Source: Thermococcus aggregans (lineage in GTDB: Archaea; Methanobacteriota_B; Thermococci; Thermococcales; Thermococcaceae). From it: DNA of 64,000 nucleotides. The translations under genes were made by a program, and so were the position numbers. The stretch lies in assembly GCF_024022995.1 (NCBI RefSeq), contig NZ_CP099582.1, forward strand, positions 372,001-436,000, in the 5' to 3' direction. This document shows positions 36,585 to 55,751 of the stretch, one piece after another; the first letter of the stretch is position 1; the number at the start of each line of letters is the position of its first letter. Under the pieces are notes generated by a model that was given only the letters and a program-made list of their open reading frames with translations, did not search any database and was not told the DNA's origin.

Positions 36585-38891
36585 TTAATCTCTCCTAAAG
36601 ATGCCCCTGTCCAGTATCTTCTCACCTTCCATATACGCATACCTTACAACATCTCCTTCTACTTCTTCTGGAAGCTCAAGCTCCGTCTTATTTTCAACGT
36701 TGTATTCCCCTTCAAACACCGCCGTCCCGTTGTCCAAGAACCCCCATATTTTTAGCTTCGTCCCCACTGCGTTCTCAAACTTGAATATTACTTTGCTTTC
36801 GGTTCTTTCAATCCTCACATTTGGGTGTTTGAGTTTCAGGATTTTTATCAAGCCGCCATCTGAATAAACTAGCTCATAGGGCTCACTCGCATTGATGAAA
36901 AGCCTTACTAGAGGTGTGTTAAACGCTTCCTCGTTCATAAAAATCGCATATTTGTAATCAAGATTTACGTAAAGGTATGTGTTCGTGTTTGAGTAAGCTA
37001 ATTCCGGAGTTGTTATGTCCCTATGGTACTCAACGAAGAGTTTCTTGGGAGATATTGTCTTCCCATTCAGGTTTATTCTGACATCCCATTTTTCTCCGGG
37101 CTTTGCCAATATTTTGTATTCCCCTCTCTCAAAGGCCAGAATCCCGCCGTAAGATAAAGTCAGTGGCAGAACAACCAGCCCATATCTTTCGCTGATGTTG
37201 TAACTGGGGTGAGCACTGGCAGTCTGCACTATCGCATCAAACTTTAGGAAGTCGTAATAGCTCACAATAACGTAGTCCACCCCAAGGTTTATAGCCCAGT
37301 TCTCATCTCTTTTTCCCAAGTAGTAGAGGGCAACATCCGGATTAGGTGCTATTTCAGCCAGGGGACTTCTCCTCGAGTAGTACGTTATCCAAGCCCCATA
37401 GTCCCACCAGGCTAAAACAATGTCGTTCTCGTTTGAGTTATTCCCGAGCCACGTCAAAGCATCCTCCCACGCTTCATTCATAAAGGGCTTTGTGTTTAGG
37501 ACATTTTCAAATGTAAAGACCCCGTTTATTGTCGGGAGCAGTATTAGAAGAGCTAAAACGACGCCATACGCCTTCTTGTTTTCCAACTTTGACACTATCA
37601 GTTCATAAGCTTCCACCACTCCTGCTCCCACCATAAGGGCTACAGCCAGTGAGCCTATGGAGACAAACCTTGACCAGGTAGAGAGCATATATAGGCTCGG
37701 GATAATCAATCCCAGAAGGAGGAAATCGACTAATTTCACTCGCCCTGGGCGGAAGCGCAGAAGGAATAGTGGACTTAGGAAAAGGCTTATTGAAAAGGCA
37801 TTCCACAGATCTTGGAAAGTTGTTGGGCTTGTCTCCATTATTGGAACGCCCTCAAACATACCAAAAACGCTAGAAAGCTCTTTCAATGCCGGGAATTTTA
37901 AGAGGAATATCAAAATGGACACTGCAGCTAAGCCGAGTATAGCTCTCACCTTTGCTTTTTTGTCTTTCACGAATTTTGAGAGCAAGAGCAAAAGTATTAC
38001 AAAAACCAGAGCCAGCGGCACGAGGTAGTAAAGATGAACCAAAAGGTATGCGTCCTTTATTAGTCCAAATTCAACCCCCAGCTTTGCTGCGATGGATCTT
38101 CCAAAGTCTCCAGTGTATCCAAGCATGCCGTAGCCAAATTTTCCTCCTAAGAAGTTGGCTATAAATGCCCCCAGTGCTGTCGAAAGAATTAGAGCGAGGC
38201 TGTCTAACAAACGCTCTTGCTCATTGAGTAGAAACGAACCGATAGCCAATAACATACCACTCAAAATTAGAAATATGAATATTGGGTAATAGGCCTGCCA
38301 GAAGATTGAGGCTAAACCGCTCGCAAAGGCCGGAACTAAGTAGAACAGTAGCCTTTTGTGCCCCCATTTTTCTTTGTCTGCACTGAATGCCAATGCTATC
38401 CCAAGTAAAGCTATTGAATACCAGAAGAGCATGTAATTGTCTCCCCTATAGTAGTTTGCCATCGACCTAAAGACGTGCCCAAAGCTCAAAGCCAAAAACA
38501 AAGCCGAGAAGAAAGCTTTCTTATCACCATAGAACTTCCGTAGGGCGAGATAAAAGAATATTATCGTCAAAACTCCAAAAATCACCGGCGTGATCCTAAA
38601 AGCATCGTAAAGAGAAACCCCAAAGACACTCAAAATTTTGTAGATATAAGCAGGAGTCATCCAAAGCCCAAGAGGGTGGAAGTCTCTAACTTGAAACCCC
38701 CACGGGCCATTGGCAAGAGTGAAGAAGTTAAACCATTCCCCCGCTTTCAAAGCCTCCTCAATATAAGCCAAATGAAAATACGGATCATAACCGAGGAGAT
38801 ACCTAAATCTCAATGGGAGGCTTCTCAAAAGTACTGCTATGATCGTGAGAAAGGCAAGTGGAGTTAGAGAAGATTTTCGTAGGGATTTCAT
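36585..38891 (-). CDS. aglB: Oligosaccharyltransferase AglB (STT3 family), copy 2
   Basis: A 768-residue protein built like copy 1. It has the same GYDPYFHLAYIEEALKAG and YYRGDNYMLFWYS motifs, about 13 membrane segments, catalytic LAWWDYGAWITYY at about residue 493, and a matching C-terminal domain. The two copies are clearly paralogues, with long shared blocks (FGVSLYDAFRITPVIFGVLT) but differing loops. GGTGGG precedes ATG 38891 and ATATAAAA at 38928-38937 on the minus strand is its TATA box. It diverges from a flippase/glycosyltransferase operon that may supply its glycan. Confidence 0.92.
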   Translation of the reverse strand: MKSLRKSSLTPLAFLTIIAVLLRSLPLRFRYLLGYDPYFHLAYIEEALKAGEWFNFFTLANGPWGFQVRDFHPLGLWMTPAYIYKILSVFGVSLYDAFRITPVIFGVLTIIFFYLALRKFYGDKKAFFSALFLALSFGHVFRSMANYYRGDNYMLFWYSIALLGIALAFSADKEKWGHKRLLFYLVPAFASGLASIFWQAYYPIFIFLILSGMLLAIGSFLLNEQERLLDSLALILSTALGAFIANFLGGKFGYGMLGYTGDFGRSIAAKLGVEFGLIKDAYLLVHLYYLVPLALVFVILLLLLSKFVKDKKAKVRAILGLAAVSILIFLLKFPALKELSSVFGMFEGVPIMETSPTTFQDLWNAFSISLFLSPLFLLRFRPGRVKLVDFLLLGLIIPSLYMLSTWSRFVSIGSLAVALMVGAGVVEAYELIVSKLENKKAYGVVLALLILLPTINGVFTFENVLNTKPFMNEAWEDALTWLGNNSNENDIVLAWWDYGAWITYYSRRSPLAEIAPNPDVALYYLGKRDENWAINLGVDYVIVSYYDFLKFDAIVQTASAHPSYNISERYGLVVLPLTLSYGGILAFERGEYKILAKPGEKWDVRINLNGKTISPKKLFVEYHRDITTPELAYSNTNTYLYVNLDYKYAIFMNEEAFNTPLVRLFINASEPYELVYSDGGLIKILKLKHPNVRIERTESKVIFKFENAVGTKLKIWGFLDNGTAVFEGEYNVENKTELELPEEVEGDVVRYAYMEGEKILDRGIFRRD

Positions 38892-38994: not shown

Positions 38995-40218
38995 ATGAAT
39001 CTTAGCCGCCTGCTTGGTCATGAGTTCTACATAAGCACATTCATTTTGATGGTAGCAATAATCGTTTCAAATCTCTTCAATTACCTTTATCAAGTTTTTA
39101 TGGGCAGGTTTTTGACCCCAGCGGAGTATGGAGAATTACTAGCCTTGTTATCTTTACTCTACGTGGTTTCCGTGGTGTTTGATACTATCAATGCCTCATC
39201 GACAAAGCTTTCTGCATTATACGGGAACAGAAGAAAACTAGTACGTAAAGGAAGTTTTTTAGTCCTCGTTGCAGGTGTTCTGTTATATTTCCTACTCTTG
39301 GTAGTGTCTGTTCCCCTTTCAGGGTTTTTGAATATTCAGGAGTTGAGTTACTTTTCTCTTGTTTTTCTTTCTGTCCCTCTCGGCATGCTACTATCTTTTT
39401 ACCAGGGTATTTTGAGGGGACTCCAGAAATTTGGTAATCTTGCCATAAGCATATCATCTTGGGCCGTGTTCAAATTCGCAATTGGAGCTGTACTTGTCAT
39501 AAAAGGGCTGGGGGTTGTGGGGGGCATTTTGGGCTTTCCCCTGGCCTCGCTACTCACAATATTCCTAACCTTAGCGTTCATTTGGAGAAGAACTGAAGAA
39601 AGTGAGTTTGAAAATGCCAAGTCCTTAGATCTAAGAGATTTTTTGAGATTCAGCTGGTTTGCCTTTTTAGCAATGCTTTTCTACGCTTCTCTGTGGAACT
39701 TGGACTTAATCCTTGTAAAACATTATTTTCCCCCAGCAATTGCGGGGCAGTATTCTGTTATATCCGTGGTTGGAAGAATATCTCTGTTCTCAACAATGGC
39801 TGTTGGACTGGTTGTACTACCTAAAGCAACTAGGAGTGGCAAAAACCAGAAAATGCTTCTAAAAGCCTTGGGGTTCACTTTGATTGTCTTGGGCGTGGTT
39901 TTAGCGCTCTATTATTTCATCCCGGAATTCATACTTAATGTCCTTTATGGTCCAAAATACATCACCCTAACCCCCTACATTTGGAAATATGGATTAGCTA
40001 TGTCATTTCTTGGAATGGTCAACGTAATGATGAACTATGGACTGGCTACTGATAACTTTAAGATCGTCTATTGCATGATTTTTGGGGTTTTAATGGAAGT
40101 TCTGGGCATTATGCTTTACCATGGAAGCATAGGGGCAGTTATAAATGTTGTAGTTTGGGCAACTTTTGCAGTATTCGTCTTGATGCTTTTGGTTATCTGG
40201 AGGGATGAAAGGGCATGA
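38995..40218 (+). CDS. Wzx-like oligosaccharide flippase
   Basis: A 407-residue membrane protein with about 12 segments. FLTPAEYGELLALLSLLYVV near the N-terminus is the family's typical first loop. It is shorter than, and clearly different from, the flippase at 4524. It is the first gene of a four-gene operon (flippase, GT4, GT2, GT4) with 1- to 8-nt overlaps. It would flip the lipid-linked glycan used by the divergent AglB. Confidence 0.85.
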   Translation: MNLSRLLGHEFYISTFILMVAIIVSNLFNYLYQVFMGRFLTPAEYGELLALLSLLYVVSVVFDTINASSTKLSALYGNRRKLVRKGSFLVLVAGVLLYFLLLVVSVPLSGFLNIQELSYFSLVFLSVPLGMLLSFYQGILRGLQKFGNLAISISSWAVFKFAIGAVLVIKGLGVVGGILGFPLASLLTIFLTLAFIWRRTEESEFENAKSLDLRDFLRFSWFAFLAMLFYASLWNLDLILVKHYFPPAIAGQYSVISVVGRISLFSTMAVGLVVLPKATRSGKNQKMLLKALGFTLIVLGVVLALYYFIPEFILNVLYGPKYITLTPYIWKYGLAMSFLGMVNVMMNYGLATDNFKIVYCMIFGVLMEVLGIMLYHGSIGAVINVVVWATFAVFVLMLLVIWRDERA

Positions 40219-41333
40219 GGATTGCATTTATCTACGATGTAGTTTATCCATATGTGAAAGGGGGTGTTGAGAAGAGACTCTATGAGCTCGGAAAACGCCT
40301 TGCCAGAAAACACGAGGTCGTCTGGTTTACCTTAAAATGGTGGGAAGGGAAAGATACAATCGAGAAAGATGGGATTCAAATAATAAGCGTGGGAGACTCA
40401 AAGACACTCTACCACGGAGGGAGACGATCAATATCAGAAGCTATTTATTTTGCTTGGAAAATGCTCCTCAAAGGTTCTCTCGGAGACTTTGACGTGATTG
40501 ATTGTCAGGAGTTCCCGTATTTATCGTGTTATACTTCTCGCTTGAATCTCCCAAAGGGAGCAAGTTTTGTCATAACTTGGCACGAGTTTTGGGGAAAATA
40601 CTGGAAAGATTATCTCGGGAGTGCTGGAATTGTCGGAGTGAAAATAGAGAAGGGGCTAACAAAACTTACAAGGCACCACATAGCAGTCTCCAAGATCACT
40701 AAAGATTATCTAAAGGAAATAGGAGTCTCAGCTGCCTTGGTTCCAAATGGCATCGACTTTAAAAAGATTGACAAAATAAAGAAGGGAGAGCGGAGCTTTG
40801 ACTTCCTCTTTGTTGGCAGGTTAGTCAGGCACAAAAACGTCGACTTTCTTCTAAGGAGCATTGCTCATGTTAAGAGAGAGCATCCCGACATAACTCTGGG
40901 AATAATAGGGGATGGACCTGAGAGAGATAACCTCGAACTTTTAGCAAGGGAACTTGGAATTTCTTCCAATGTTGAGTTTTTGGGGTTTTTGGAGAATCAT
41001 GAAGAGGTAATTTCAACAATGAAATCTTCCAAAGTTTTTGCATTTCCTTCGTTGAGGGAAGGGTTTGGAATTGTTGTTTTAGAGGCCAACGCCTCTGGGC
41101 TTCCTGCTGTGGTTGTTGACCATCCTTTAAACGCATCGAAAGATTTAATTGTGCCATGGAAAAATGGTTTTGTGAGTAAAAACAGCGAAAAAGACTTTGC
41201 GGAACATTTAATTGTTGCATACGAACATAAGAAACGATTGGGAAAGACTGCCAAAAGCGTAGCAAAGAAATATGATTGGGATTTAATCGCCAAGGAGTTG
41301 GAGAAATACTACCGGGGGATTTTAAATGGTTGA
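40215..41333 (+). CDS. Glycosyltransferase family 4
   Basis: A 372-residue GT-B enzyme. IAFIYDVVYPYVKGGVEKRL opens the acceptor domain. VGRLVRHKNVDFLLRSI, GDGPERDNLELLA and the E-x7-E motif REGFGIVVLEANASG form the donor domain. It overlaps the flippase stop by 4 nt and the next GT2 start by 8 nt. Confidence 0.88.
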   Translation: MRIAFIYDVVYPYVKGGVEKRLYELGKRLARKHEVVWFTLKWWEGKDTIEKDGIQIISVGDSKTLYHGGRRSISEAIYFAWKMLLKGSLGDFDVIDCQEFPYLSCYTSRLNLPKGASFVITWHEFWGKYWKDYLGSAGIVGVKIEKGLTKLTRHHIAVSKITKDYLKEIGVSAALVPNGIDFKKIDKIKKGERSFDFLFVGRLVRHKNVDFLLRSIAHVKREHPDITLGIIGDGPERDNLELLARELGISSNVEFLGFLENHEEVISTMKSSKVFAFPSLREGFGIVVLEANASGLPAVVVDHPLNASKDLIVPWKNGFVSKNSEKDFAEHLIVAYEHKKRLGKTAKSVAKKYDWDLIAKELEKYYRGILNG

Positions 41334-42441
41334 TGTATCTGTTGTATTGCCAACCATGAATGAGGAAGAAGCAATAAAGGTCATTTTGCCCAAGATAAAA
41401 GAAGTTTTAGGTAAAATGAGAATATCCTATGAAATCGTAGTCGTTGATAAAAGCAATGATAATACCCCCAAAATTTCCCAAGAGCTCGGTGCGAGGGTTA
41501 TAAGACAAGAAGGGAAGGGCTATGGCGATGCCTACCTTCTCGGGTTTGAAAACGCGAAAGGTAAGATTATAGTCATGATGGACCCTGACGGGAGTTACGA
41601 CCCGGAAGACATCCCAAAAATTCTGGAGCCGATACTCAACGGGCGTGCGGATTTTGTCATGGGGAGTAGGCTTAGGGGTGAGATTGACGATGGAGCAATG
41701 CCCTGGCTCCACAGGCGCATTGGAAACCCCCTCCTCACATGGATACTCAACTTCCTTTTTAAGGCAAATATAAGCGATGCACACTGCGGAATGAGGGCCA
41801 TAACAAAGGAAGCCCTAGAAAAACTGCCACTCAAATGCAAGGGGATGGAGTTTGCCAGTGAGATGGTGATTGAGGCTGTTAAAGCAGGGCTGAGAATAGA
41901 AGAAGTCCCCATAAGGTACCATGAAAGGATAGGGGAATCCAAGCTCAGCTCCTTTAGGGATGGGTGGCGGCACCTGAGACTTATGCTGCTTTATTCACCC
42001 TCTCATCTCTTTCTCCTTCCGGGAATATTTCTTCTGGGAATGGGCGTTCTCTTCATGGGGTATGCATATCTAATCAACCCGGAAAGACTGCATACCCTAA
42101 TACTTGGAAGCGCCTTAACACTCCTCGGTTTTCAGGTATTGTCTTTCGGCATTTCTGCAAAAGTCTACGCTGTTAAGGAGGGTTTTGAAAAGCCCAGTAA
42201 ATTGACAGGATTTTTCATTAGGTACTCCGTCCTCGAGGAAGGTTTGCTGGTAGGAGGCATAATGTTCCTCATAGGTATTATCCTAGGTATCTATATCTTC
42301 CTGCAGTGGAGGGCAAGCGGGTATGGAGAGCTCTTTATGCTCAGAGAGGCCGTGCTAGTGCTTACCCTAACAACTCTGGGAATATCCGTGATGTTCTTCT
42401 CCTTCTTTGTGAGCATATACATGCTTAAGGGGGAGCGTTGA
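41326..42441 (+). CDS. Polyprenyl-phosphate glycosyltransferase, GT2 (DPM1/AglJ-like)
   Basis: A 371-residue enzyme. VSVVLPTMNEEEAIKVILPK opens the GT-A domain and MMDPDGSYDPEDIP holds the metal site. GMRAITKEALEKLPLK and YHERIGESKLSSFRDGWRHL are typical of dolichyl-phosphate sugar synthases. Four membrane segments follow from about residue 228. It probably loads the first sugar on dolichyl phosphate for this cluster. It is longer than the GT2 at 16670, which has two segments. Confidence 0.88.
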   Translation: MVDVSVVLPTMNEEEAIKVILPKIKEVLGKMRISYEIVVVDKSNDNTPKISQELGARVIRQEGKGYGDAYLLGFENAKGKIIVMMDPDGSYDPEDIPKILEPILNGRADFVMGSRLRGEIDDGAMPWLHRRIGNPLLTWILNFLFKANISDAHCGMRAITKEALEKLPLKCKGMEFASEMVIEAVKAGLRIEEVPIRYHERIGESKLSSFRDGWRHLRLMLLYSPSHLFLLPGIFLLGMGVLFMGYAYLINPERLHTLILGSALTLLGFQVLSFGISAKVYAVKEGFEKPSKLTGFFIRYSVLEEGLLVGGIMFLIGIILGIYIFLQWRASGYGELFMLREAVLVLTLTTLGISVMFFSFFVSIYMLKGER

Positions 42442-43583
42442 TGGGGAAGCACATACTCGTTGTTTCTCCATACTTTTATCCCGAAGGGGGAGGACTTGAG
42501 AGGTATGCATTCAATATGGCCCAAGAGTTGGCAAAAAAAGACAAAGTCAAGGTTTTATGCATGACGAGAGGAACTGAAAAGATTGAAGAGATAAACGGAA
42601 TCACCGTCTACCGCGTTAAGCCAGAAATAATAATATCAAACACTCCAATAAGTTTGAGGTTCATCTTTAAGGTGGCCCGTGCGATTAAGGATAGCAAACT
42701 TGTAATTACCCATACTCCCGTTCCTTTTGCCGCAGACATTGCATCTTTCTTTGCCAAATTAAAAGGTATTCCTATTGAGATAGTCTATCACACAGTGGGG
42801 CTCAAAAAGGGAGATAAAATACTTGACTTTGTCGCTAGCGTATATTCCTTAACTCTGGAGAGAATAACGCTAAGGGGGTCAACAATAATTGCCGTTTCTG
42901 GGACTGTGTTTGAGTACTTCAGGGGCAGAGGATACCACTCCAGAATTTCATATCCCATGCCAGATATTACAAAATTTAACCTTTCCAAAACCTGCAAAAG
43001 AGAAAACGCAGTGCTCTTCGTGGGCCAGCTAGGCAAATACCACAAGTTTAAGAACTTAAACCTGCTCATAAGGGCTTTTGCAGAGGTTTCAGAGGAATTT
43101 CCGGAATGGAAGCTTTGGGTGGTCGGGAAAGGAGATATGGTAGATGAATACAAAAATCTAGTAGAAAAGCTAGGAATAACGGAGAAAGTTCACTTCTTTG
43201 GGGGTTTGGGAGATGAAGAGCTTTCAAAAATATACTCAAAGGCCAAGCTACTTGTTCTCCCGTCTACCTTTCCTGAATCCTTCGGAATGGTCGTTGCAGA
43301 GGCCCTAGCTTTTGGTACCCCGGTAATCGTTTCACCTTATGTTGGGGCAAAGTTCTTAGTGGATGACAGAAAAAATGGAGTGATTTTGAAAGACCTCAAG
43401 GAAGAGTCCCTTGAAAATGCTATGAAAAATCTGATGAGAAACCCAAAGGCTTTGAAGAGGTTCTCTCATATTGCCAAACATAAGATGCGTGCTTCTCTTA
43501 AAGGAGAAACTCCCCTAGTTCCCAATGATATAGATTTGGACAGGAAACATGAGCGAGATACCAGAATAGATTGTGAATGTTAG
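42441..43583 (+). CDS. Glycosyltransferase family 4, possibly truncated at the 3' end
   Basis: A 380-residue GT-B enzyme. VSPYFYPEGGGLERYAFNMA starts the acceptor domain. FVGQLGKYHKFKNLNLLIRA and the E-x7-E motif PESFGMVVAEALAFGTP lie in the donor domain. The last roughly 35 residues (from about HKMRASLKGE to RIDCEC) do not look like a GT4 end and may be new sequence after a 3' deletion. ATG 42441 overlaps the upstream stop by one base, and GGGGGAG lies before it. Confidence 0.82.
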   Translation: MGKHILVVSPYFYPEGGGLERYAFNMAQELAKKDKVKVLCMTRGTEKIEEINGITVYRVKPEIIISNTPISLRFIFKVARAIKDSKLVITHTPVPFAADIASFFAKLKGIPIEIVYHTVGLKKGDKILDFVASVYSLTLERITLRGSTIIAVSGTVFEYFRGRGYHSRISYPMPDITKFNLSKTCKRENAVLFVGQLGKYHKFKNLNLLIRAFAEVSEEFPEWKLWVVGKGDMVDEYKNLVEKLGITEKVHFFGGLGDEELSKIYSKAKLLVLPSTFPESFGMVVAEALAFGTPVIVSPYVGAKFLVDDRKNGVILKDLKEESLENAMKNLMRNPKALKRFSHIAKHKMRASLKGETPLVPNDIDLDRKHERDTRIDCEC

Positions 43584-44077: not shown

Positions 44078-47000
44078 ATGAATAATAATAAGAGCAAATA
44101 TTTAGGTGTGTTGCTAGCAGTTTTAATGCTAGCAACAGCAGTGCCAGGGTTCTTAGTTCCAGTAAGTGCTGCAGCTCCAACTTCTATAAGCGCAACAGTT
44201 GGTACAAATTACCCCAATAACAAGATATTTGCAGGGTTACCAGTGAACATATCCTTAAACGTCACTTATGACCAACCAGCGAACAGTTACGTCCGAGTTA
44301 CAGTATACTACAATGAGATAAGCACTGCTACTAAGCTTTATGAGACACCAGATGGCAATATACCTGGATTCCCAGTAACTAATGGAACTGCCCATATTGA
44401 GTTGCCTGAATTAAGATTTCCTCAGGAAGCTGAGACGGCAATTATTGTGCTTTATGACCCACTGTACGAGATAACGGCAAATGAGACCCTTCCAGTTCTC
44501 TTCCCATACAACGTAACATACACTGTTACATCGGCAGTGCCGTACTACAATACAACATGGAAGTATGACATGGCATTTAAAGAGATACCCTTCAATCTGA
44601 CAGTAAACGTGACATATGACCCAGATAGTAGTGTAGGTGCTCCAAGTAATGTTACTGCAATAGTCTACCTCCCAGACGGCACAGATAATACCACAATAAT
44701 ATCCCTAACCAATGGTATTGGCAGTGTAACATTCGAGAACTTGATTTCAAACAGTATTGGAACTGTTGAGATAACTGTAGCGGACACTATAAACAAGTTA
44801 ACTAAGACAATATCTGGCCCAGAAGTCCACAACTGGTGGATTGAGTTTGATGTTAACTACACTACCGACTTCAGCTTGACATATCCACCATATGCAAAGC
44901 TTCCATTCAACATAACTGGAAATGTAATTGCATATACGGACTTTGGTGCACTCTTAAGTGTCAATGATAACGTTTACATTGAACTAGCAGAGAACTCTAC
45001 ATACAACACAACTACCACTATGATCAATGGAAATGCTTCCTTCAGTATGAGCGATATTACCTTGGAAGAAGGAGGTACCTACTACCTCTATGCAAACATG
45101 AGCATGTACTCCCCAACTGCCACCCTCGAGTTCAACATAACTTCATGGGACATCAATATAACCCCAACCATAACCTGTGATGGCGTAGAGTGTGCATACT
45201 TCTATGTGGGTCTCAACCAGACCCTTAACATAACGGTTAACTATCCAGTCAGCCCATACAACATTGCTTCAACAGCAAACTACAGCATCCTCCTAAACGA
45301 CGTTGAAATACACAACGGCACTATAAATGTCGTCAATAACACCGGCGAGGTTATCATTCCGGTTAACTTCAACGAGAGTGGAGTCGTTACCATTGAAGTG
45401 TGGGACGAAAACTACCAAGAATTTAACAGCGTAACCATTGAAGTTAGAGAGTGGGGTCTTGATTACGATTACACCGTTACCCACTACCCAGACACGTACT
45501 TCATCACTGATGACAAGTTCTACGTTGGAATTCCGGCTAGCCTAACGCTGGATGTTATCTACACCCAGCCTTGTCCGATAAACGCCACCGTCAACATAAC
45601 CTTACAGCTTCCAAATGGTACAGTGCTTACCAATTCGACGGTCGTCTCAGATGATACCAGCACCATATTTACATTCCCAGAGACGTTCCTATTCAAAGAG
45701 CCAGGATTCGTTGTAGTGACATACACCGACAGCTTTGACAAGAGCGTTAGCTTCAAAATACCTGTCAAGGACTGGGGTATCTTCGTGGACGTATCCCCAG
45801 AGGAGCTCATCCAAGGCGAGAGCGTCAACTTCAACGTATTCGTAGCGGAGTCACTGTACTTTGGCGATACCTGGGAAAGCGGTCCAGGAAGTAGAGATGT
45901 CACAGTTACAATTGAACTCCCCGATGGCTATGTTGAGACAAAGAACCTTACACTTGAGCAGAATGATGACTGGTACTCCGGTCAGGGCGGCTACCAGGGA
46001 ATAGTGACATTCGAGAACGTTACACCACAGATGCCGGGACTCGCTTGGGTCACAGTTACCGATGTACTCAGCGGTAAGACCGTGAGGATGCCGGTAGAAG
46101 TAAAGGTTCCAGAAGACTACGTCGGAAAGGTGATACAAGTAACAGCCACACCAGAGTCAACCCCAGTTTATAAATACATCCCGAACGCAATGGAGATTAC
46201 CATTGAGTACTACAACAGAGATGCTAACGGAGGCCTTACCCCGGACAACGGTCCCCACTACATGAGAATACTCGTATATGACGCAGATGGTAGTACTGTG
46301 ATAGTCAACACAACTGCCTCTACCAACGAATACATGTACATTCTGCCAGTTGATGAGATTCCAGTTAACGGCCTCACACCAATAGCCATCCACGTCATCG
46401 ACTTGACCAACACAAGCATCAGAGGTACTACAACAATCCCAGTCACCGACTGGAGTGCCATCATAAACATCGAGGACGTCACGGTCTGGAAGTATGTTGA
46501 CAACACTCTCACGGTATCGGTGGAGCCGACTAACGGTGTCCCACTCACTGCAGCCGACCTTAACGTTACCGTCAGCACCAACTACGGAAGTGACAACGGC
46601 ATGGGAGAAGTTACAATATCACTGACTGATCCAACTGAAAATGTCACCGGAACCGTCGAAGTCTACTACAAAGATTACCTCATTAACAGTACCACCATAA
46701 ACATACCAGTCACTCCATGGAACGCCACCATAACCGTTATTCCAGACAAGATTTACTGGGGTATATCAACTGATGTCACGGTAAATGCTGAGCCAACTGA
46801 CAGCCATCCGGACGAGGATGTTCCAGTTACTGCAGCCGACCTTAACGTTACCGTCAGCACCAACTACGGAAGTGACAACGGCATGGGAGAAGTTACAATA
46901 TCACTGACTGATCCAACTGAAAATGTCACCGGAACCGTCGAAGTCTACTACAAAGATTACCTCATTAATACAGTAGCCATTTTCATCCCAGTAGAGGAGT

Positions 47001-49840
47001 GGGCAGTTAATGTGGACTACGAACCAAAGACGTTCTACTACCTGCCAAACGGATACGCCAACGAGCCCCTCGTTGGAAGTGTTGTCCTTGACCTTCCGGC
47101 CAGCATCGCGAGTGCTGCCAATATAACATTTGAGGCCTCGCTTCCAACGCTAGGCATTGGTGGAGGCTCAAGTGGAAGCAACACCTTCACGTTTGACTTC
47201 ACTTGGGCTCCCGAGAAGTTCGTATTCAACAGTAGCGGCGTGGTTCCTCTAGTGGTCAAGCTATATGACCCGGCCACAAACTTCACGTACTTCGAAGAGA
47301 CCTATGAAATACCCATCGAGCTCGCCCTTGATGCCGAGATAAGCGGAACATACTACGAAGACGTTCCAACGGACTTCGTAATATACGTCGAGTCTATCTC
47401 CGACAATCCGAATATAACCGTCACGATAAACGACACTGACTACACTACCACAGTTGATCAGGATGGCGAAATAATTATCGAGGACGTCACGCTTGATGCT
47501 GGTAACTACACGGTGATAATAAGTGATGCATCTCTTGGAGCAACCATAACTAGAACCTTTGAAGTCAGGGAGTGGTACATCGAAGTTAATGTTATCCCAG
47601 ATGAAATCGTTGCGGGAGCAGCTTGGAATGTATACTCTGAGGTTAGGACAATAGACTCAACAACTAATGAGACCGCCCCAATAAGTGGTCCTGTTGATAT
47701 TACAATTGAATTCTCGGATGAAACAATAATTAGACCAGACTCACGCCCAGTTGAGTTAGTAAATGGTATGGCAGAGTTTAGAAAAGTACTCATAGCTCCA
47801 GTACCAGGAAACTACAGCATTACTGCGACCATCTACAACCACACCGACGCATTAGTGCTAAATGTAAGAGCTCCAGAGCCTAATGAAGTTGCATGGGTGT
47901 ATGCGAACATTAGGATTGAAAACACTACTGAAACACCTGATGAACCCACTGTAATCTATATATCTTGGGCCGATGCCCCACTGGAAAGACCAGACATCCC
48001 GTACTACCCAGTTTACGACCCCATAACAGGTGAACTAGTAAAAGCAGATGCAGGAGAGGATGAAGTGGCGTTTAGAGTATATGCTGGCGGTGGCGAGTAT
48101 GAGTGGGCATGGTGGCAATGGGGTTACGTTATAGCAGTACCCGAAAATGTCCACAATGCATTAGAAGTCCCAGAGATTCGGGATGGTGAAGTTATCAGAC
48201 CAGTAGCCGATACATATGCAGATTATGAGCACTCTGTTACGTCAAACGGATACTACAACTGGACCATCACTGTGACTGCTGATAAGTATGATGTAACCTA
48301 CGTCTACAAACCGCCAATGTATCCAGGACTGCTATACATCGAACAGGCATCATCATCCTTCCAAATAAACGCCATATATGTTGGAGCTACAACTGAAACA
48401 GAGTTAGCAGATAGTCTCACTAACTTCACTACAATCGAAATTGTTCCAGACAACCTCACATTGAGCCTGCTTGATGAAACTGACAAGAAGCTCATCAAAG
48501 AAGGAGAAGAAGGGCCAGAATTTACAATACAGGCATTACTAAGGATAATGAACGCCAGCGAGCAGTTCGAAGAGCAGTTTGCTCCGTTCGAGGAATGGAT
48601 AATGGACATAGACTTCCTTTCCGAGGAGCAGAAAGCAGAGATCATCACCAACATTACTGCCCAAATCGGAGAACTTCCGAGCGAGCCAGTTCCATATCCA
48701 AATGCTACAATAGAATTCTACCACACCAATTCAGCAATTGCAGATCTCATACCAGAAAATGCTACAACTGATGAGAGCGGTACTGCAACAGTAACTGTTA
48801 AATCAAAAGCAACAGCTGATATGTTACCTGAAGAACTAGCTCAACTAGTAGGTAGCACTACAGTTAGTGCCACCTATGGAGCACTTCCAAGTAGTAACAA
48901 CATAACAGTTACATTCTTAGGAACAGGTTCAGTATCAGGAGATGTCACAGACATCACAGGAATGCAGATTCCAGGAGCTAAAGTGTACCTCAAGATAAAA
49001 GTTAACGGAACGTGGGTTAACGCAACAGACTACTACGGCAATCAATTAATCACGCAATCTGCAGAAGATGGACACTACTCAATTGACAATATTCCAGTTT
49101 ACAGTTCTGAGGGTACAGAATACTTAGTAGTTGCGGAATTCTCCGAAACAAAAGGATATGCCTATGTAACAGTAAAACCATTCGTAACAGCAACAGCAGA
49201 CGTCAAACTTACTGGAGAAGTTCCATCCACAGGCCTTGCAATTTATAAGCAAAAAGTCCAGCAGGCTGAGCACGTGTACGTGGTTTACGGTAGTGATGCT
49301 CTCAGCAGTGATTCATTCGCAATCTCAGCATACATAGCCCAGACAGTTCCACCAGAGAAGTTCCTCATGAGGACTGACGCCCAGCTCGACATGAGTGCGC
49401 TAACAGACAAGGACGTTGTTGTTTCAGTCGGTGGTCCGGCAGTTAACGAGGTAACAGCAGCCTTCGAGCCAGTTGCTCCAGTCCACATGGTACTTGGCGA
49501 AAACATCACAATAGTTACTCCAAAAGGAAACCTCACCTGGAGCGCCCCAGAAGTCTGGTACAACGTCACCGAAGGATACTTCATCATCCAGCTCTTCGAA
49601 GACAATGAGACAGGCGCACTAGTAGTCACAATCTACGGTACTGATGCCGACTCAACACTCGCAGGAGCATACTACTTCGCCAACACAATCTATCCAAACC
49701 TCGCCGACTACGCAGAAGTCAGCTGGATCGTCGGCAAGTGGACTGACAGTGATGCTGGCGAACCAGTAGTAATCCTCGACCCAGCCGACGACAGTGGATT
49801 CAACCCAGCAGACACCATTACAATCGTCTACAAAGGCTGA
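44078..49840 (+). CDS. Large S-layer-like surface glycoprotein
   Basis: A 1920-residue secreted protein. The signal peptide is NNNKSKYLGVLLAVLMLATA, with likely cleavage near VSAAAP (about residue 31). It is followed by some ten tandem beta-sandwich modules of about 90-120 residues, most joined by an x-x-W linker (VREWGLDY, VKDWGIFV, VTDWSAII, VEEWAVNV, VREWYIEV). A helical insert lies at about 1470-1530 and a carboxypeptidase-regulatory-like domain at about 1615-1705 (SVSGDVTDITGMQIPGAKVY). The C-terminal 200 residues resemble the S_layer_C domain (VVSVGGPAVNEV; GTDADSTLAGAYYFAN). Dozens of N-x-S/T sequons fit AglB targets. It is either the main S-layer protein or a large surface protein; no membrane anchor is visible. 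Confidence 0.85.
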   Translation: MNNNKSKYLGVLLAVLMLATAVPGFLVPVSAAAPTSISATVGTNYPNNKIFAGLPVNISLNVTYDQPANSYVRVTVYYNEISTATKLYETPDGNIPGFPVTNGTAHIELPELRFPQEAETAIIVLYDPLYEITANETLPVLFPYNVTYTVTSAVPYYNTTWKYDMAFKEIPFNLTVNVTYDPDSSVGAPSNVTAIVYLPDGTDNTTIISLTNGIGSVTFENLISNSIGTVEITVADTINKLTKTISGPEVHNWWIEFDVNYTTDFSLTYPPYAKLPFNITGNVIAYTDFGALLSVNDNVYIELAENSTYNTTTTMINGNASFSMSDITLEEGGTYYLYANMSMYSPTATLEFNITSWDINITPTITCDGVECAYFYVGLNQTLNITVNYPVSPYNIASTANYSILLNDVEIHNGTINVVNNTGEVIIPVNFNESGVVTIEVWDENYQEFNSVTIEVREWGLDYDYTVTHYPDTYFITDDKFYVGIPASLTLDVIYTQPCPINATVNITLQLPNGTVLTNSTVVSDDTSTIFTFPETFLFKEPGFVVVTYTDSFDKSVSFKIPVKDWGIFVDVSPEELIQGESVNFNVFVAESLYFGDTWESGPGSRDVTVTIELPDGYVETKNLTLEQNDDWYSGQGGYQGIVTFENVTPQMPGLAWVTVTDVLSGKTVRMPVEVKVPEDYVGKVIQVTATPESTPVYKYIPNAMEITIEYYNRDANGGLTPDNGPHYMRILVYDADGSTVIVNTTASTNEYMYILPVDEIPVNGLTPIAIHVIDLTNTSIRGTTTIPVTDWSAIINIEDVTVWKYVDNTLTVSVEPTNGVPLTAADLNVTVSTNYGSDNGMGEVTISLTDPTENVTGTVEVYYKDYLINSTTINIPVTPWNATITVIPDKIYWGISTDVTVNAEPTDSHPDEDVPVTAADLNVTVSTNYGSDNGMGEVTISLTDPTENVTGTVEVYYKDYLINTVAIFIPVEEWAVNVDYEPKTFYYLPNGYANEPLVGSVVLDLPASIASAANITFEASLPTLGIGGGSSGSNTFTFDFTWAPEKFVFNSSGVVPLVVKLYDPATNFTYFEETYEIPIELALDAEISGTYYEDVPTDFVIYVESISDNPNITVTINDTDYTTTVDQDGEIIIEDVTLDAGNYTVIISDASLGATITRTFEVREWYIEVNVIPDEIVAGAAWNVYSEVRTIDSTTNETAPISGPVDITIEFSDETIIRPDSRPVELVNGMAEFRKVLIAPVPGNYSITATIYNHTDALVLNVRAPEPNEVAWVYANIRIENTTETPDEPTVIYISWADAPLERPDIPYYPVYDPITGELVKADAGEDEVAFRVYAGGGEYEWAWWQWGYVIAVPENVHNALEVPEIRDGEVIRPVADTYADYEHSVTSNGYYNWTITVTADKYDVTYVYKPPMYPGLLYIEQASSSFQINAIYVGATTETELADSLTNFTTIEIVPDNLTLSLLDETDKKLIKEGEEGPEFTIQALLRIMNASEQFEEQFAPFEEWIMDIDFLSEEQKAEIITNITAQIGELPSEPVPYPNATIEFYHTNSAIADLIPENATTDESGTATVTVKSKATADMLPEELAQLVGSTTVSATYGALPSSNNITVTFLGTGSVSGDVTDITGMQIPGAKVYLKIKVNGTWVNATDYYGNQLITQSAEDGHYSIDNIPVYSSEGTEYLVVAEFSETKGYAYVTVKPFVTATADVKLTGEVPSTGLAIYKQKVQQAEHVYVVYGSDALSSDSFAISAYIAQTVPPEKFLMRTDAQLDMSALTDKDVVVSVGGPAVNEVTAAFEPVAPVHMVLGENITIVTPKGNLTWSAPEVWYNVTEGYFIIQLFEDNETGALVVTIYGTDADSTLAGAYYFANTIYPNLADYAEVSWIVGKWTDSDAGEPVVILDPADDSGFNPADTITIVYKG
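46547..46686 (+). repeat. Exact 140-bp in-frame direct repeat, copy 1
   Basis: Identical over 140 bases to 46829-46968, with an offset of 282 bases (94 codons). Encodes TAADLNVTVSTNYGSDNGMG and following residues of one beta module. Exact identity including third codon positions means recent duplication or gene conversion. Confidence 0.95.
46829..46968 (+). repeat. Exact 140-bp in-frame direct repeat, copy 2
   Basis: Second copy of the repeat at 46547. The sequences outside (before TAADLN and after KDYLIN) differ. Only the inner part of the module is homogenised. Confidence 0.95.
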
Positions 49841-49850: not shown

Positions 49851-49953
49851 CAAACTTCCTTTTTCTCTTCTTTTGCCTTTTGCAATTCTTCGAAGTTCTA
49901 AAAACTATCACAAACATTTTAAAGGAATACAGCTTATTTGGTATTCGAGGCCT

Positions 49954-52035
49954 ATGAACGCGCTCCGTGAAGAATTCAAAAACAAAAGTGAGGTGTTTTT
50001 GATATTTATTGCCTATGCATCCTTCGTTGTTCTTGTATACTATCAAATATTCATTAAAAGCATCCCACCCCTAATATGGGATCAGGCAATCCATTTCATG
50101 GATAGCATTAAATATTATCGCGCATTGAGAGACCTAAGTCTCACTCCCCTTATTTTTGCAGATAGATATTACCCACCATTTCCCCAGCTTTTGGCAATTC
50201 CTGGATATGTGATTTTTGGGGAATCCCCCGAAGTCGGAATTTTCACCGTGAATCTTATAGCAGTTGGATTAATTAGCTACTCTATCTACAAACTCTCCAA
50301 AATACTAGACATAAAAAAATCAGGCTTTTTGGCAGTTCTTGTTCTTTTGACTTCTCCGATAGTGCTTGATCAATCAATAGTTTTCATGGTAGATTTAACG
50401 CTAACTGCAATGGTTACAGTTGCTTGGTATTTTCTTCTAAGAGCTGAGGAATTCAAATCGAGAAAGTACTCAATTCTCGCTGGGATAACCGCAGGCTTGG
50501 GCTTGCTGTGCAAATGGACTTTTCCGTTTTTCATTGCTGTTCCAGTGTTGTATGGGTTAATAAAGGGATTCAAGAACAACTGTGTTCACAAGGAGACTTT
50601 AAAATGTGAGATACTTAGCAATTTTGCTCTTTTTGTTTTGGTGGCTTTTGTGATTTCGGCGTGGTGGTACTTGCCAAACTTGAAAGTGTTAATACCCGCA
50701 CTATTATACAACAGTAGAGTGAGTGGTGCCTTGGAAGGAGACCCAGAAGTGTTTTCATTTCAATCAATTCTGTACTACCTTTGGGTGTTTGTTAATTATT
50801 ATCTCGGTCTGCTGGGGTTTGTTGTGTTTACTATTGTGTTGTTCTATGTCTGTAAGGAAAGAAGACAAAATACGCTAACAAATCTTTTATTGTTCCAGTT
50901 AATTTTCTCTTACGTTCTTTTCACATTAACCCGGAATAAAGCTCCCCGATTTTTAATGCCAATAATTCCACTTTTGGCTATGTTGGTTTCCTATGGTACT
51001 GAAAGTTTGGTAAGACAGAACAAAAAAGTGCTAAGCATTTCGATTACAGTTATTCTTGGGATCTCTGGGGTTTTTAATGTTTTGACATTTCTTGGTGCTC
51101 TCCAACCAACATCGATCACTCAAAGCTCTTTAATTGCAATAAATGGGGGAAAATTGTACTTTACTGGAGTTTACGAAAGTAGAGCATTTGGACATTCAGA
51201 ATGGGGAGCTTACTTGAAAACCACAGAAAAGGACTGGAAGATCGATGATATTCTTTCGGCAATAGGTTGCCCCCAAACTCAGAAGAAATTATATGTTCTG
51301 GCCAATAATCCATGGATAACTTGGCCGTTAAGGTATATGGCATTGCTTAGGGGATGTAATATCGAGGTTATAGAACCTATTGAAGAAAACTATCTCCTCT
51401 CCATTGCTTCAGACTATGTTCTTTACACTGAGGGAGGCTTTCTAGCTGAACCGTGGGCCATTAATTATACTTTGAAAGCCAGGGAATTGTTCATTCATTA
51501 TAACAATAGTAGCGGACACTTTATAGGAATTAACAGATTCCAATTTCCAGATAGTGAAGGAATTCTTTATAAAAGAAGCTCAAACTACACACTCTTACTC
51601 TCGAACTTATCAACAGATATAACGAAAAAGAGATGTTCAATCTCCAAGCCTATTTTTGCTCAGAAAATAGAACTTATAGGCTTGTGCATTTATCAAACAA
51701 TGCATGATAAACATGTGCTTTTAATTGAATACTACTGGAGAACAAATTCGCCCATAGAAAGAGATTATGAAATATTTGTGCACTTTACCGACGAAAAAGG
51801 GAACATTATTTTTCAACAGGATCACCAACCTTGTGGAGGAAAGTGTCCCACTTCAAGTTGGAAACCTGGAGAAATAATCCACGAAGCATACATAGTCAAA
51901 ATTCCAGCTCAAGGTACTTATCAAATTCGCATTGGATTTTGGTATCCCGACACTGGAGAGAAACTTCCCGTAGATGAGGCTCACAACGATGGATACAATA
52001 GGGCAATTATAGAGACTTGTGAGTTCCCACTTTAA
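49954..52035 (+). CDS. GT-C membrane glycosyltransferase (PMT/ArnT-like)
   Basis: A 693-residue protein. About 10-11 membrane segments carry the acidic loop-1 pair typical of GT-C enzymes (PPLIWDQAIHFMDSIKYY) and ADRYYPPFPQLLAIPGYVIF. AGLGLLCKWTFPFFIAVPVL matches the PMT/ArnT fold. A C-terminal extracellular beta domain of about 200 residues follows. It would use a lipid-phosphate sugar to modify a protein or lipid at the outer face. ATG 49954 follows GAGG and a TTTTAAA box at 49917-49923. The 27-residue longer reading would start upstream of that promoter. Confidence 0.8.
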   Translation: MNALREEFKNKSEVFLIFIAYASFVVLVYYQIFIKSIPPLIWDQAIHFMDSIKYYRALRDLSLTPLIFADRYYPPFPQLLAIPGYVIFGESPEVGIFTVNLIAVGLISYSIYKLSKILDIKKSGFLAVLVLLTSPIVLDQSIVFMVDLTLTAMVTVAWYFLLRAEEFKSRKYSILAGITAGLGLLCKWTFPFFIAVPVLYGLIKGFKNNCVHKETLKCEILSNFALFVLVAFVISAWWYLPNLKVLIPALLYNSRVSGALEGDPEVFSFQSILYYLWVFVNYYLGLLGFVVFTIVLFYVCKERRQNTLTNLLLFQLIFSYVLFTLTRNKAPRFLMPIIPLLAMLVSYGTESLVRQNKKVLSISITVILGISGVFNVLTFLGALQPTSITQSSLIAINGGKLYFTGVYESRAFGHSEWGAYLKTTEKDWKIDDILSAIGCPQTQKKLYVLANNPWITWPLRYMALLRGCNIEVIEPIEENYLLSIASDYVLYTEGGFLAEPWAINYTLKARELFIHYNNSSGHFIGINRFQFPDSEGILYKRSSNYTLLLSNLSTDITKKRCSISKPIFAQKIELIGLCIYQTMHDKHVLLIEYYWRTNSPIERDYEIFVHFTDEKGNIIFQQDHQPCGGKCPTSSWKPGEIIHEAYIVKIPAQGTYQIRIGFWYPDTGEKLPVDEAHNDGYNRAIIETCEFPL

Positions 52036-52170
52036 ATGAAGTCTAATTCTTTTTTCCAAAACACTTTCACAGCCTAAGTTTAGTATCCTGCAGATTATCC
52101 TTGTAGTATTCCAAACCTATGAGGAAAGTCTTTTAAGTTTCCGAACGTTTTGTTTTTTTGGGATTGAGTG

Positions 52171-52857
52171 ATGAGGAGAGAACTGCTTTATGTTTTAGTT
52201 TTGGCATCTGTTATAGCTCTGGGCACTCTGCTAATAGTATACCCCAAAACGAGTCCCGGATATAGTCTGGCTTATTTTGACAACTTGACTACCCCAAATT
52301 ACATAATTCCCAATCAAACTTACGAAATGAGTTTTGTAATAGAATCACATGAAAGAGAAAGGACAAAGTATGAGTTTGAAGTTTTTATAAACAATCATAA
52401 AATAAAGAGCGGCGAAGTTGTTCTAGAACCTCAAGAAAAACACTCAATATCTTTCAACTTTTCCGTATCGGAAGTTGAGTATGAGAAAATAACCCTAGAA
52501 ACGAGAACTGAAAAATATTTGATAAACGGCTCCATAATTCTCGGCACACATTCTAGTTTAAACAATGCATCTGAATTGGGCATCTTGTTGCTAGACAATA
52601 ACCTTACGCTTAACTTAGCTTTTCCGATAACTGGGACACCACTTCACGTCTCTCATGTTCGGAATATTTCCGAAGGAAATGAAACTTTAGCGGAAATAAT
52701 AGAATACGACCTAACAGAAATTAATGAGACTTACATCCTAACCAGAAAGTACTCAAAGGTAAAATACGTTGCAGAACCAGTAAAAGTTAAGGTCATTGTT
52801 AAATCTCAGAACGAAGAGTATCCTTTACTCCTCACAATTCCCATAAAGGAGGGGTGA
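52171..52857 (+). CDS. Single-pass surface protein of unknown function
   Basis: A 228-residue protein with one N-terminal membrane segment (LLYVLVLASVIALGTLLIVY) and a beta-rich extracellular domain with several sequons. The general pattern recalls the ectodomain of DUF1616 proteins, without the four-segment membrane part. CTTTTAAG at about 52130-52137 is a possible TATA box. It overlaps the next gene by 4 nt (GTGA), so the two are probably made together. Confidence 0.65.
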   Translation: MRRELLYVLVLASVIALGTLLIVYPKTSPGYSLAYFDNLTTPNYIIPNQTYEMSFVIESHERERTKYEFEVFINNHKIKSGEVVLEPQEKHSISFNFSVSEVEYEKITLETRTEKYLINGSIILGTHSSLNNASELGILLLDNNLTLNLAFPITGTPLHVSHVRNISEGNETLAEIIEYDLTEINETYILTRKYSKVKYVAEPVKVKVIVKSQNEEYPLLLTIPIKEG

Positions 52858-55022
52858 AGTTGGATATTACGCTCCTCATTCTTTTCCTGTTTATCCTTGG
52901 AACAATGTATCTGGTCACCAGCGAAAAATTGACAAAAAATGCTACACTATTTCTTATTCTGTTTTTTGCTTTCATAGTTTGGTACTATATTCGATTTGGT
53001 TTTGGGCGATACTTCACAAGCTTTGATGAATCCTACTACACCTCCCTTCTGGGGGATCGTTATTGGTACAGCAACTGGCCGATCTCTGGATTTGCTACCC
53101 CTTTTCTGCTCCATAAATTGAATGACGTAATCTCCGACCCAATCATTACAACACTAACTTTCTCTGCCTTAGTCTTCCTGATTTATGTGATCTTTCTTTA
53201 CTGGTTTTACAAAAAGATGGGGCTTGACGAAAGAGCTTCTTTGTTCTCCCTGTTAGTCCTTTTTATGTCCAGCTATTACATCTGGCCAGCAATGGAAGTT
53301 AGACCCCAACAATTAGGACTCATAGTAGGTGCGTCCTTATTCCTAGCTCTAAGATCAAGACATAAGAGATTGTTAGCCCCTATTCTTTCTGTGTTACTTG
53401 TTTTAACTCATATCCTGTCGTTTATTGTATTTTCGATACTGCTACTGGTACATACCATGTTAGAAGTTGTAATCAAAGGAAAAAACCGTAGAACGGAGCT
53501 TTTAACGATATCTTTTTCAATAGTATCGGGATGGGTGGTTTTTCTCATATTTTCCCCATATAACAAGATGGTAGCTTCGTTAGTATGGGTAATAAAAAAC
53601 ACAAAAATAATTGGCAAAGCACCGTTATGGGATCATTTTTCGATCATATCCACTATTCTGTTAGTGATTGGCTTCTACATCGTAGTCAGGATTACGGATT
53701 TTGCTACTAAGAGGGTAGACACATTAAAAAACATTTGGGAGGTTACAACAGCGATTGTTAAAAGATTCAAGCCCTATATATTTGGATTATCTTTTGCACT
53801 TGTTATGATAGGCTTGTACTTGCAGTTTAAACTTAGGGCCGATGTTTATACAACCGTATATTCAAATTCCGCAGTAACATTTCTTTTACTTCAGTTTGGC
53901 AATCTGTTCTTCGCCATAGTGTACATCAAGGAAGTTATAAACAAAATACCAAAAAATGCTTTTCAGGACTTGGATGTTATCTCGATAATTTTAGTCTTTG
54001 TCGGAGGATTGGGTCTCCTTGCTTCCATTTTAATGCCAAGTTCTGGAGGGTGGTCATTTAACAACTGGCTAGTTAGAATAGTCCAGTACTTTGTACCTTT
54101 TGCTACGCCAATAGTGGCTCTTTCTTTAATGCGAGACTTAAAGGAGACAACTCAAAAAGTTAAACTTCTTATCACGGTAACACTCAGTCTTTTGATATTC
54201 TTGAGCGTCTTAAATGTAGCCAGACCCCCGCAACTCTATAATTATGATCTCACTTGGGATGAAGAAACAATAAATGTAGCAAAAAAAGCAAAATTCAATG
54301 CGTTTTTGGGATTCAGAACAACTCCGTCAGATTTCAAAAGGATTTCAGTCGAAAACTTGCTCAGAGCCTATGGAAGACTATCCACCGACTATGTAACTCC
54401 CCAAGGATCGGTTTTATTATCAAGTGACAATTATTATCTGCTATCTGCTCCGTTTACTCCAATAAAACTCGGAGAAATCAAAAAGTATCAAAATCTTTAC
54501 ATTGTTCCTTCGTCGCCCACTGAAGAGTATCACGCTTATCTTATATTCCATGAGCATTCACTAATAGAGACAGACAAATGTAGCGGAGTTTCTCCACTTT
54601 TAATTATTGGAGGGCCTCTTTCAAATAAGTGCACAAAACAACTTGAAGAAAAAAGAGCAACGTTGGTATCATTCTCAGAAAATGGCTTAGTCTCCCCACA
54701 CAGTATATACCCCTACCCCCAGTCCGGGAAAAATTGGTGGGATGTGGAAAATGGACTCTTTGTAATTCAATCATTAGAACACGAGGGAGATTTTATAATT
54801 CTGATAGAAGGAACAAACATAGACTCCACAATTGCAGGTATGTATTATTTTGAAAATTTTGTATACAAAGCAGAAATGTATTCGGAATGCTCGTATATCA
54901 TAGGGGAATGGAGAGAGAAAGACGGCCAAGTATGGGATAAACTCAAATTTGACCCAGAAGACAAAAATGGCTTTAGCGAAGGGGATGAAATTAAAATCTT
55001 AGAGGTAGGATGTTCTGGTTAG
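52854..55022 (+). CDS. Multi-pass GT-C-like protein with an S-layer-type C-terminal domain
   Basis: A 722-residue protein. Residues 1-470 hold about 12 membrane segments with an acidic first loop (GRYFTSFDESYYTSLLGDRY), as in GT-C enzymes. The last roughly 150 residues align with the C-terminus of the 1920-residue S-layer protein: LLIIGGPLSNK to VVSVGGPAVNE, LIEGTNIDSTIAGMYYFEN to TIYGTDADSTLAGAYYFAN, and FDPEDKNGFSEGDEIKIL to LDPADDSGFNPADTITIV. A shared domain on a membrane protein suggests contact with, or anchoring of, the S-layer. The start is GTG 52854, overlapping the previous stop. Function beyond that is unknown. Confidence 0.75.
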   Translation: MKLDITLLILFLFILGTMYLVTSEKLTKNATLFLILFFAFIVWYYIRFGFGRYFTSFDESYYTSLLGDRYWYSNWPISGFATPFLLHKLNDVISDPIITTLTFSALVFLIYVIFLYWFYKKMGLDERASLFSLLVLFMSSYYIWPAMEVRPQQLGLIVGASLFLALRSRHKRLLAPILSVLLVLTHILSFIVFSILLLVHTMLEVVIKGKNRRTELLTISFSIVSGWVVFLIFSPYNKMVASLVWVIKNTKIIGKAPLWDHFSIISTILLVIGFYIVVRITDFATKRVDTLKNIWEVTTAIVKRFKPYIFGLSFALVMIGLYLQFKLRADVYTTVYSNSAVTFLLLQFGNLFFAIVYIKEVINKIPKNAFQDLDVISIILVFVGGLGLLASILMPSSGGWSFNNWLVRIVQYFVPFATPIVALSLMRDLKETTQKVKLLITVTLSLLIFLSVLNVARPPQLYNYDLTWDEETINVAKKAKFNAFLGFRTTPSDFKRISVENLLRAYGRLSTDYVTPQGSVLLSSDNYYLLSAPFTPIKLGEIKKYQNLYIVPSSPTEEYHAYLIFHEHSLIETDKCSGVSPLLIIGGPLSNKCTKQLEEKRATLVSFSENGLVSPHSIYPYPQSGKNWWDVENGLFVIQSLEHEGDFIILIEGTNIDSTIAGMYYFENFVYKAEMYSECSYIIGEWREKDGQVWDKLKFDPEDKNGFSEGDEIKILEVGCSG

Positions 55023-55154: not shown

Positions 55155-55751
55155 ATGAGGAAGGAAATCGTATTCATGATGCTGGGGTTGTTGTTGGGAG
55201 TAATGGGCTTTAAAGTAGGCACTGCGCTCTTCAGCGACATCAGTCTCTCTGAGAAAAACGAGATCTCCACAGGAGAATTCGACATAAGAATCAGCAAAAC
55301 AGGGGATAGGTTCTACAACGATTTGAAGCTCTTTGAGCTCGATAACCTAAAACCCGGAGACGAAGCAAACGTTAGCTTCTACATAAAAAACGGTGGAGAA
55401 ATAGAAATATCGAAAATAATCATGACTCCCAGAGTCCAGGACTTAGAGGATGGAGAGCTCACAGATGCTGAATCCCTTGTGGACTTCACTCCAGAAGAAG
55501 GGGAGCTAAGCAAAAGCATAATAATCGAGTGGATAGTGGTAACGAGGAGCAACGAAACCTACACCCTCAAAGAGTATTCGGAAAAGACCTTATATGAGCT
55601 TAACAACCAAGCAATATCCCTATTAAAAACTCCTCTTGCCCCATCGGAAACCCTTAAAGTGTCAATGTTTTTCCTTGTTGACCCAAATGCCACTAATGAA
55701 ATCCAGAAGGATCTCTCCCTGATCTCGCTCCAAATCTATGCAGAGCAGTGA
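55155..55751 (+). CDS. TasA/camelysin-like secreted protein
   Basis: A 198-residue protein with an N-terminal membrane or signal segment (EIVFMMLGLLLGVMGFKVGT), followed by ALFSDISLSEKNEISTGEFD. This is the characteristic start of TasA, CalY and SipW-dependent matrix proteins (x-FSD-x...N-x2-x-x-G-x-x-D). The rest is a beta domain (LKPGDEANVSFYIKNGGEIE). In bacteria such proteins form biofilm fibres, and relatives in archaea form bundling pili. No SipW-type peptidase gene is seen nearby. It overlaps nothing and has its own promoter. Confidence 0.75.
   Translation: MRKEIVFMMLGLLLGVMGFKVGTALFSDISLSEKNEISTGEFDIRISKTGDRFYNDLKLFELDNLKPGDEANVSFYIKNGGEIEISKIIMTPRVQDLEDGELTDAESLVDFTPEEGELSKSIIIEWIVVTRSNETYTLKEYSEKTLYELNNQAISLLKTPLAPSETLKVSMFFLVDPNATNEIQKDLSLISLQIYAEQ

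Follow-up and report, generated by a model that had tools for sequence, protein, structure and literature searches.

A GT-C_A-type membrane protein of Thermococcaceae carrying an S-layer-anchor-like domain in common with a neighbouring giant glycoprotein

The window analysed in the present study, a stretch of 64,000 nucleotides from a 1.89-Mb, single-contig genome of Thermococcaceae, contains an AglB-type N-glycosylation locus inside which a sequon-laden secreted protein is encoded. A 768-aa AglB/STT3-type oligosaccharyltransferase (36585..38891, reverse strand; STT3-PglB_core match over the cut-off) is divergently oriented to a series of forward-strand sugar-assembly genes encoding a flippase (Polysacc_synt), a GT4, a GT2 and another GT4 protein (38995..43583), and GT4/GT2 genes are conserved upstream in most homologous loci. 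These genes are followed on the same strand by a gene for a 1920-aa secreted S-layer-like glycoprotein (44078..49840), which has a signal peptide and Ig-like/CarboxypepD_reg-like repeats, lacks a C-terminal transmembrane (TM) segment and carries 63 N-glycosylation sequons (NxS/T), compared with a mean of 21 and a maximum of 34 in shuffles. Next, also on the forward strand, are a gene for a 720-aa PMT_2-family GT-C protein (49873..52035; Pfam PF13231, E=5.9e-15) and a gene for a 229-aa protein (52168..52857) with an N-terminal TM anchor, 9 sequons and an ectodomain that resembles the C-terminal portion of DUF1616. The latter gene overlaps by 4 bases the start of a GTG-initiated gene for a 722-aa polytopic protein of GT-C_A fold (52854..55022, forward strand), as described by its AF2 model, Foldseek and its homologues, and herein named gtB. 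Synteny showed that the position of the PMT_2-family gene between gtB and its 1920-aa partner is not conserved, and that the 229-aa gene precedes gtB in the nearer clade only.

The gtB protein and the 1920-aa protein share a C-terminal domain. Blastp pairs residues 559-719 of gtB (window ~54528-55010) with residues 1752-1920 of the 1920-aa protein, with 32% identity, 49% positives and E=1e-17, and the local score of the two C-termini is 193, compared with a mean of 29.7 (SD 4.9) and a maximum of 59 in 1000 shuffles. With relatives added, the families of gtB copies and secreted copies align over 178 columns (hhalign, P=100%, E=4.9e-40), and the blocks GGP-x2-N, GT-x2-DST-xAG-x-YYF and DP-x-D-x-x-GF are all found in the pair. 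These results confirm the shared domain claimed in the original prediction, which placed it at 54550-55022, correct to approximately 10 residues at the 5' edge. In gtB, the S_layer_C-like (anchor-type) domain, predicted to be extracytoplasmic, spans residues 555-722 (54516..55019, forward strand; blastp, hhalign and positive-inside topology); its DxNGFSxGD tail is nearly invariant, and Cys576/Cys593 are conserved in the nearer clade. The partner copy occupies the very C-terminus of the 1920-aa protein (49285..49837, forward strand; blastp and the 9FSA match described below) and includes a conserved W[WY]N[VA][TS] sequon.

Several lines of evidence relate this domain to the S-layer. First, PF05124 (S_layer_C) matched the two window proteins with E values of 0.013 and 0.066 and with 13.3 bits (gtB) and 15.6 bits (1920-aa protein), below the gathering cut-off of 23.9, and the best E across 19 gtB homologues was 0.0029. 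Because these matches are sub-threshold, the shared domain is remotely related to S_layer_C, is additionally extended at its C-terminus and is not a plain member of that family. Second, in the profile-profile comparison with S_layer_C that had been set beforehand, a profile of the C-termini of 30 canonical ~600-aa Thermococcales S-layer proteins aligned with the secreted copies at P=93% (E=4e-7) and with the gtB copies at P=68% (E=5e-5; hhalign), in agreement with the original prediction. By sequence, the shared domain aligns with the split canonical domain in the C-terminal half of the latter only; no alignment was obtained for the N-terminal half, and the description as a complete anchor domain therefore depends on the structure match. 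Third, an AlphaFold model built for the C-terminal 320 residues of the 1920-aa protein (pLDDT 90) matched PDB 9FSA, the "Cell wall anchoring domain of the surface layer protein of Methanococcus voltae (aa 24-75; 484-576)" (Foldseek, E=3.8e-4, probability 1.00, TM-score 0.61 on target), a fold match of the secreted copy, to which the gtB copy is tied via hhalign at P=100%. The same entry was also recovered by sequence profile (E=0.015). Most of the Foldseek matches ranked above 9FSA (pilins, dioxygenases, SlaB) probably come from the beta-sandwich preceding the domain, and BcsB was a further distant alpha/beta match. The 9FSA domain makes the anchor dimer of M. voltae on the two-fold axis of the lattice, and a dimeric anchor has also been predicted for the S-layers of P. 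abyssi and of two species of Thermococcus (PMC11410804). The shared domain resembles the M. voltae anchor domain and S_layer_C in predicted fold, in the GGPxxN motif and in the order of elements. However, it is one continuous C-terminal module, whereas the domain of S-layer proteins is split between the N- and C-terminus; it adds a VGxWxxxD...DxNGFSxGDxI tail; and it occurs on a polytopic membrane protein too. Overall, it is of the anchor/dimerisation type and, although related to plain S_layer_C, differs from it. The earlier idea that this domain may mediate subunit contacts is sound and is strengthened by the relation to S_layer_C and by the predicted 9FSA-like dimerising fold.

The membrane part of gtB resembles known glycosyltransferases. 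The top Foldseek matches of the AF2 model (pLDDT 87, pTM 0.82) were STT3A (E=6.4e-5), STT3, PMT1/2, PMT4, ArnT and DPY19, mostly at probability 1.00, and by this model the membrane part belongs to the GT-C_A class. Among the full-length homologues, which number 18 and show 26-38% identity, and gtB, Asp58-Glu59 (53025..53030, forward strand), located in the first external loop (EL1), which joins the first conserved TM helices, at the GT-C 'DE/DD' catalytic position, is invariant (19/19), as are R150-P151-Q152, H186, R408 and Y412 in the 19 sequences. The position of this EL1 acidic pair, that of ArnT D55/E56 and PMT1 D77/E78, has been reported to be critical for GT-C catalysis (PMC7801869). The positive-inside count gave 0.07 Lys+Arg per residue for the external loops and 0.20 for the internal loops, and the helix count from EL1 puts the C-terminal domain on the side of EL1, the outer side; by prediction, the domain lies outside the membrane. 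The AF2 model places residues 457-545 (~90) after the last TM segment and before the anchor-type domain.

Despite STT3A being the best structural match, gtB was rejected as an oligosaccharyltransferase, as it has no STT3/AglB Pfam match and the WWDYG motif is not in place; its sole WWD sits in the S-layer-like domain, where it aligns with the WWN[VA][TS] that the secreted copies carry. Searches against Pfam gave no GT-C or other glycosyltransferase family for gtB. Together with the lack of WWDYG in its place, this result puts gtB in a GT-C_A-type family of its own, and the conserved sequence and predicted structure indicate that it is probably an active enzyme. It shares with the GT-C_A enzymes (STT3/AglB, PMT, ArnT, DPY19) the fold, the direction of the TM segments and the EL1 acidic pair, and differs from them in the lack of a Pfam GT-C match and of the WWDYG of STT3, and in an ectodomain ending in an S-layer-anchor-like domain. 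GT-C enzymes with fused ectodomains are known, including DPY19, STT3 and EmbC (PMC10154233, PMC3044687). The layout of gtB is like that of the Mycobacterium arabinosyltransferase EmbC, a GT-C enzyme whose fused extracytoplasmic domain serves in acceptor recognition (PMC3044687), but the EmbC domain is a lectin-like beta-sandwich binding sugar, whereas that of gtB is a copy of a structural surface-protein domain. An S-layer-anchor-type domain on a GT-C enzyme was not found in the literature searched.

The distribution of gtB was determined in 115 genomes of the phylum, including 94 of Thermococcaceae. The polytopic form was observed in 21/94 Thermococcaceae and in none of the other genomes of the phylum; no GT-C homologue lacking the domain was found in the 115 genomes, and nothing was found in the plasmids and viral contigs searched. 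The co-occurrence looked for in other genomes was observed: all 21 gtB genomes have a secreted carrier of the domain, and 70 of the 73 genomes without gtB have none (Fisher's exact test, 4e-18 for all genomes and 1e-13 for near-complete genomes only, values inflated by shared ancestry and physical linkage). The three exceptions (G029, G035 and G037) have secreted carriers but no gtB, suggesting that the secreted domain also works with something else. Each of the 18 homologous loci that contain a full-length gtB also encodes a secreted carrier upstream, usually as the next gene or the next but one, and this linkage is kept while the other neighbours vary; in five genomes, the carrier is a divergent protein of 836-861 aa with a Cys-containing tail. 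In the domain tree, the gtB copies group in a single long-branched clade (support 97/100): there was one fusion, and joint inheritance followed. In a mirror-tree comparison, the distances of the partner's domain correlated at r=0.91 with those of the gtB domain and at r=0.87 with those of the gtB core, so that the gtB domain follows the partner hardly more closely than the core does. The domain is a portable C-terminal module, present on giant Ig-repeat proteins, SBP_bac_5 peptide-binding proteins, a clostripain-type protease and other secreted proteins, and no TM segment follows it in the secreted carriers; these results suggest that the domain is a general surface-retention tag in Thermococcaceae. 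For example, in L057:4399-7266, L060:3725-10018 and similar regions, the domain ends an SBP_bac_5 protein and a 2097-aa clostripain-like (Peptidase_C11) protein. A scan of named genomes revealed gtB relatives on six draft contigs only, one of which, a 5-kb contig labelled Thermotogaceae (JARRBB010000097.1), carries a gtB at 37% identity; this is probably a mis-binned Thermococci contig, or otherwise a case of lateral transfer.

The two sets of domain copies differ at one site. The W[WY]N[VA][TS] sequon is present in 24/25 secreted copies compared with 2/19 gtB copies, which mostly read WWDV or GDV there. On this sequence contrast, the domain of the client seems to have been kept as a glycan acceptor, and that of the enzyme seems to have been freed of the sequon; the contrast fits a glycosylation link, but could also go back to one change in the ancestor of the gtB clade. 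Herein, we propose that gtB is a lipid-linked-sugar glycosyltransferase docked to its client glycoprotein through pairing of the anchor-type domains, a reading to which we assign a probability somewhat below one half (approximately 0.46), and in which the catalytic activity, the identity of the sugar and of the acceptor, and the domain-domain pairing are what we infer. First, gtB would take a polyprenyl-linked sugar at the outer face of the membrane. Second, by analogy with the pairing of anchors in the methanococcal lattice, its anchor-type domain would pair with the matching C-terminal domain of the giant glycoprotein encoded nearby. Third, this pairing would hold the client beside the enzyme, so that the protein chain or its N-glycans might be modified during export; the pairing may also retain the client near the membrane. 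If this proposal is true, an enzyme uses a copy of a domain borrowed from its client to recognise that client. The two-fold dimer of the anchor domain borne by canonical S-layer proteins of Thermococcales and of methanococci of this type has been described only recently (PMC11410804), and we found no paper naming a membrane partner of the S-layer anchor domain; gtB, kept beside a carrier in 21 genomes, is a concrete candidate for such a membrane contact.

The original prediction took the 1920-aa protein for the S-layer protein and proposed that the polytopic protein could fix the S-layer to the membrane or alter the lattice in place. The identification and the fixing of the S-layer are overstated or unsupported in that form. 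A canonical 626-aa S-layer protein (PF05124, E=3e-33) is encoded ~1.4 Mb away in the record, and an over-cut-off PF05124 match is near-universal (91/94 genomes); the 1920-aa protein, a giant surface glycoprotein, is probably accessory. Given that gtB is present in only 21/94 genomes, compared with 91/94 for the canonical S-layer protein, gtB was rejected as a general S-layer anchor of Thermococcaceae. A narrower version, in which gtB is mainly a structural anchor for the accessory 1920-aa protein, with catalysis secondary or absent, is a doubtful alternative. The carriers end at the domain and no TM segment follows, so that some factor must retain them, and the domain resembles a crystallised dimeric S-layer "anchor" (9FSA). 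Moreover, a double S-layer has been reported to be common among Thermococcales, where many have one (PMC5744192), consistent with a second lattice possibly built of the 1920-aa protein. However, a passive anchor would have no need of an invariant D58-E59, the gene sits in an N-glycosylation locus, three genomes have carriers without gtB, and an abundant layer would require one polytopic protein per subunit or pair. Both the invariant GT-C residues and the location in an N-glycosylation locus speak for an enzyme rather than a passive anchor. A combined role is also conceivable, though we consider it unlikely: as a structural part of the surface layer, gtB would replace half of the anchor dimer, tie the giant glycoprotein layer to the membrane and glycosylate it in place. 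The SlaA/SlaB system of Sulfolobales is similar in that it, too, involves two proteins, one of them a distinct membrane protein that could retain a surface protein. To our knowledge, SlaB is not a polytopic protein of enzyme type and has no lattice domain in common with SlaA, as the gtB pair has. SlaB has been called the S-layer membrane anchor (PMC6805947). As a separate observation, eight genomes (G019, G021, G030, G033, G042, G051, G056 and G068) have the gtB pair and lack the DUF1616-like gene between, and the best PF05124 match of their canonical S-layer protein is confined to the N-terminal part of the model; these eight genomes may therefore have a divergent main S-layer protein.

The domain might instead work inside the enzyme, shaping the acceptor site after having been borrowed once from the client, with no docking of the lattice type. 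This possibility, which we regard as rather unlikely, likens the gtB domain to the "luminal dome" of STT3, DPY19 and the Emb enzymes or to the lectin-like C-terminus of EmbC. GT-C enzymes usually have a C-terminal extracytoplasmic domain covering the active site or binding the acceptor (PMC10154233, PMC3044687), the single long-branched clade of the gtB copies is as expected after a change of use, and most of these copies are without the sequon. Nevertheless, residues 457-545 of gtB could already form the dome, and the gtB domain is still recognisably client-like in sequence (P=100%). Finally, ordinary shuffling of an alpha/beta module common among Thermococcaceae surface proteins, carried by two neighbours via duplication and fusion without any interaction, would suit the mobility of the module on SBP_bac_5, clostripain-like and other secreted proteins and its distant alpha/beta relatives in Foldseek, such as BcsB, but is improbable in view of the domain being kept by every GT-C homologue found in the 115 genomes of the phylum and of the linkage to the carrier retained while other neighbouring genes vary.

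Several other genes of the window were also observed. Downstream of gtB, a 198-aa secreted protein (55155-55751, forward strand) matches Peptidase_M73/camelysin (E=4.8e-9) and, weakly, TasA; homologues at 49-54% identity are encoded near three related regions (L035, L044 and L062), and the protein could be a TasA-like fibre subunit. On the other side of the locus, a full-length DUF1616 membrane protein (33953-34939, forward strand; E=2e-92) is encoded in the same region as the short DUF1616-like protein adjoining gtB. In addition, a PIN-domain protein (35817-36224, forward strand; PF01850, E=6e-14) is likely the toxin half of a VapBC-type pair.
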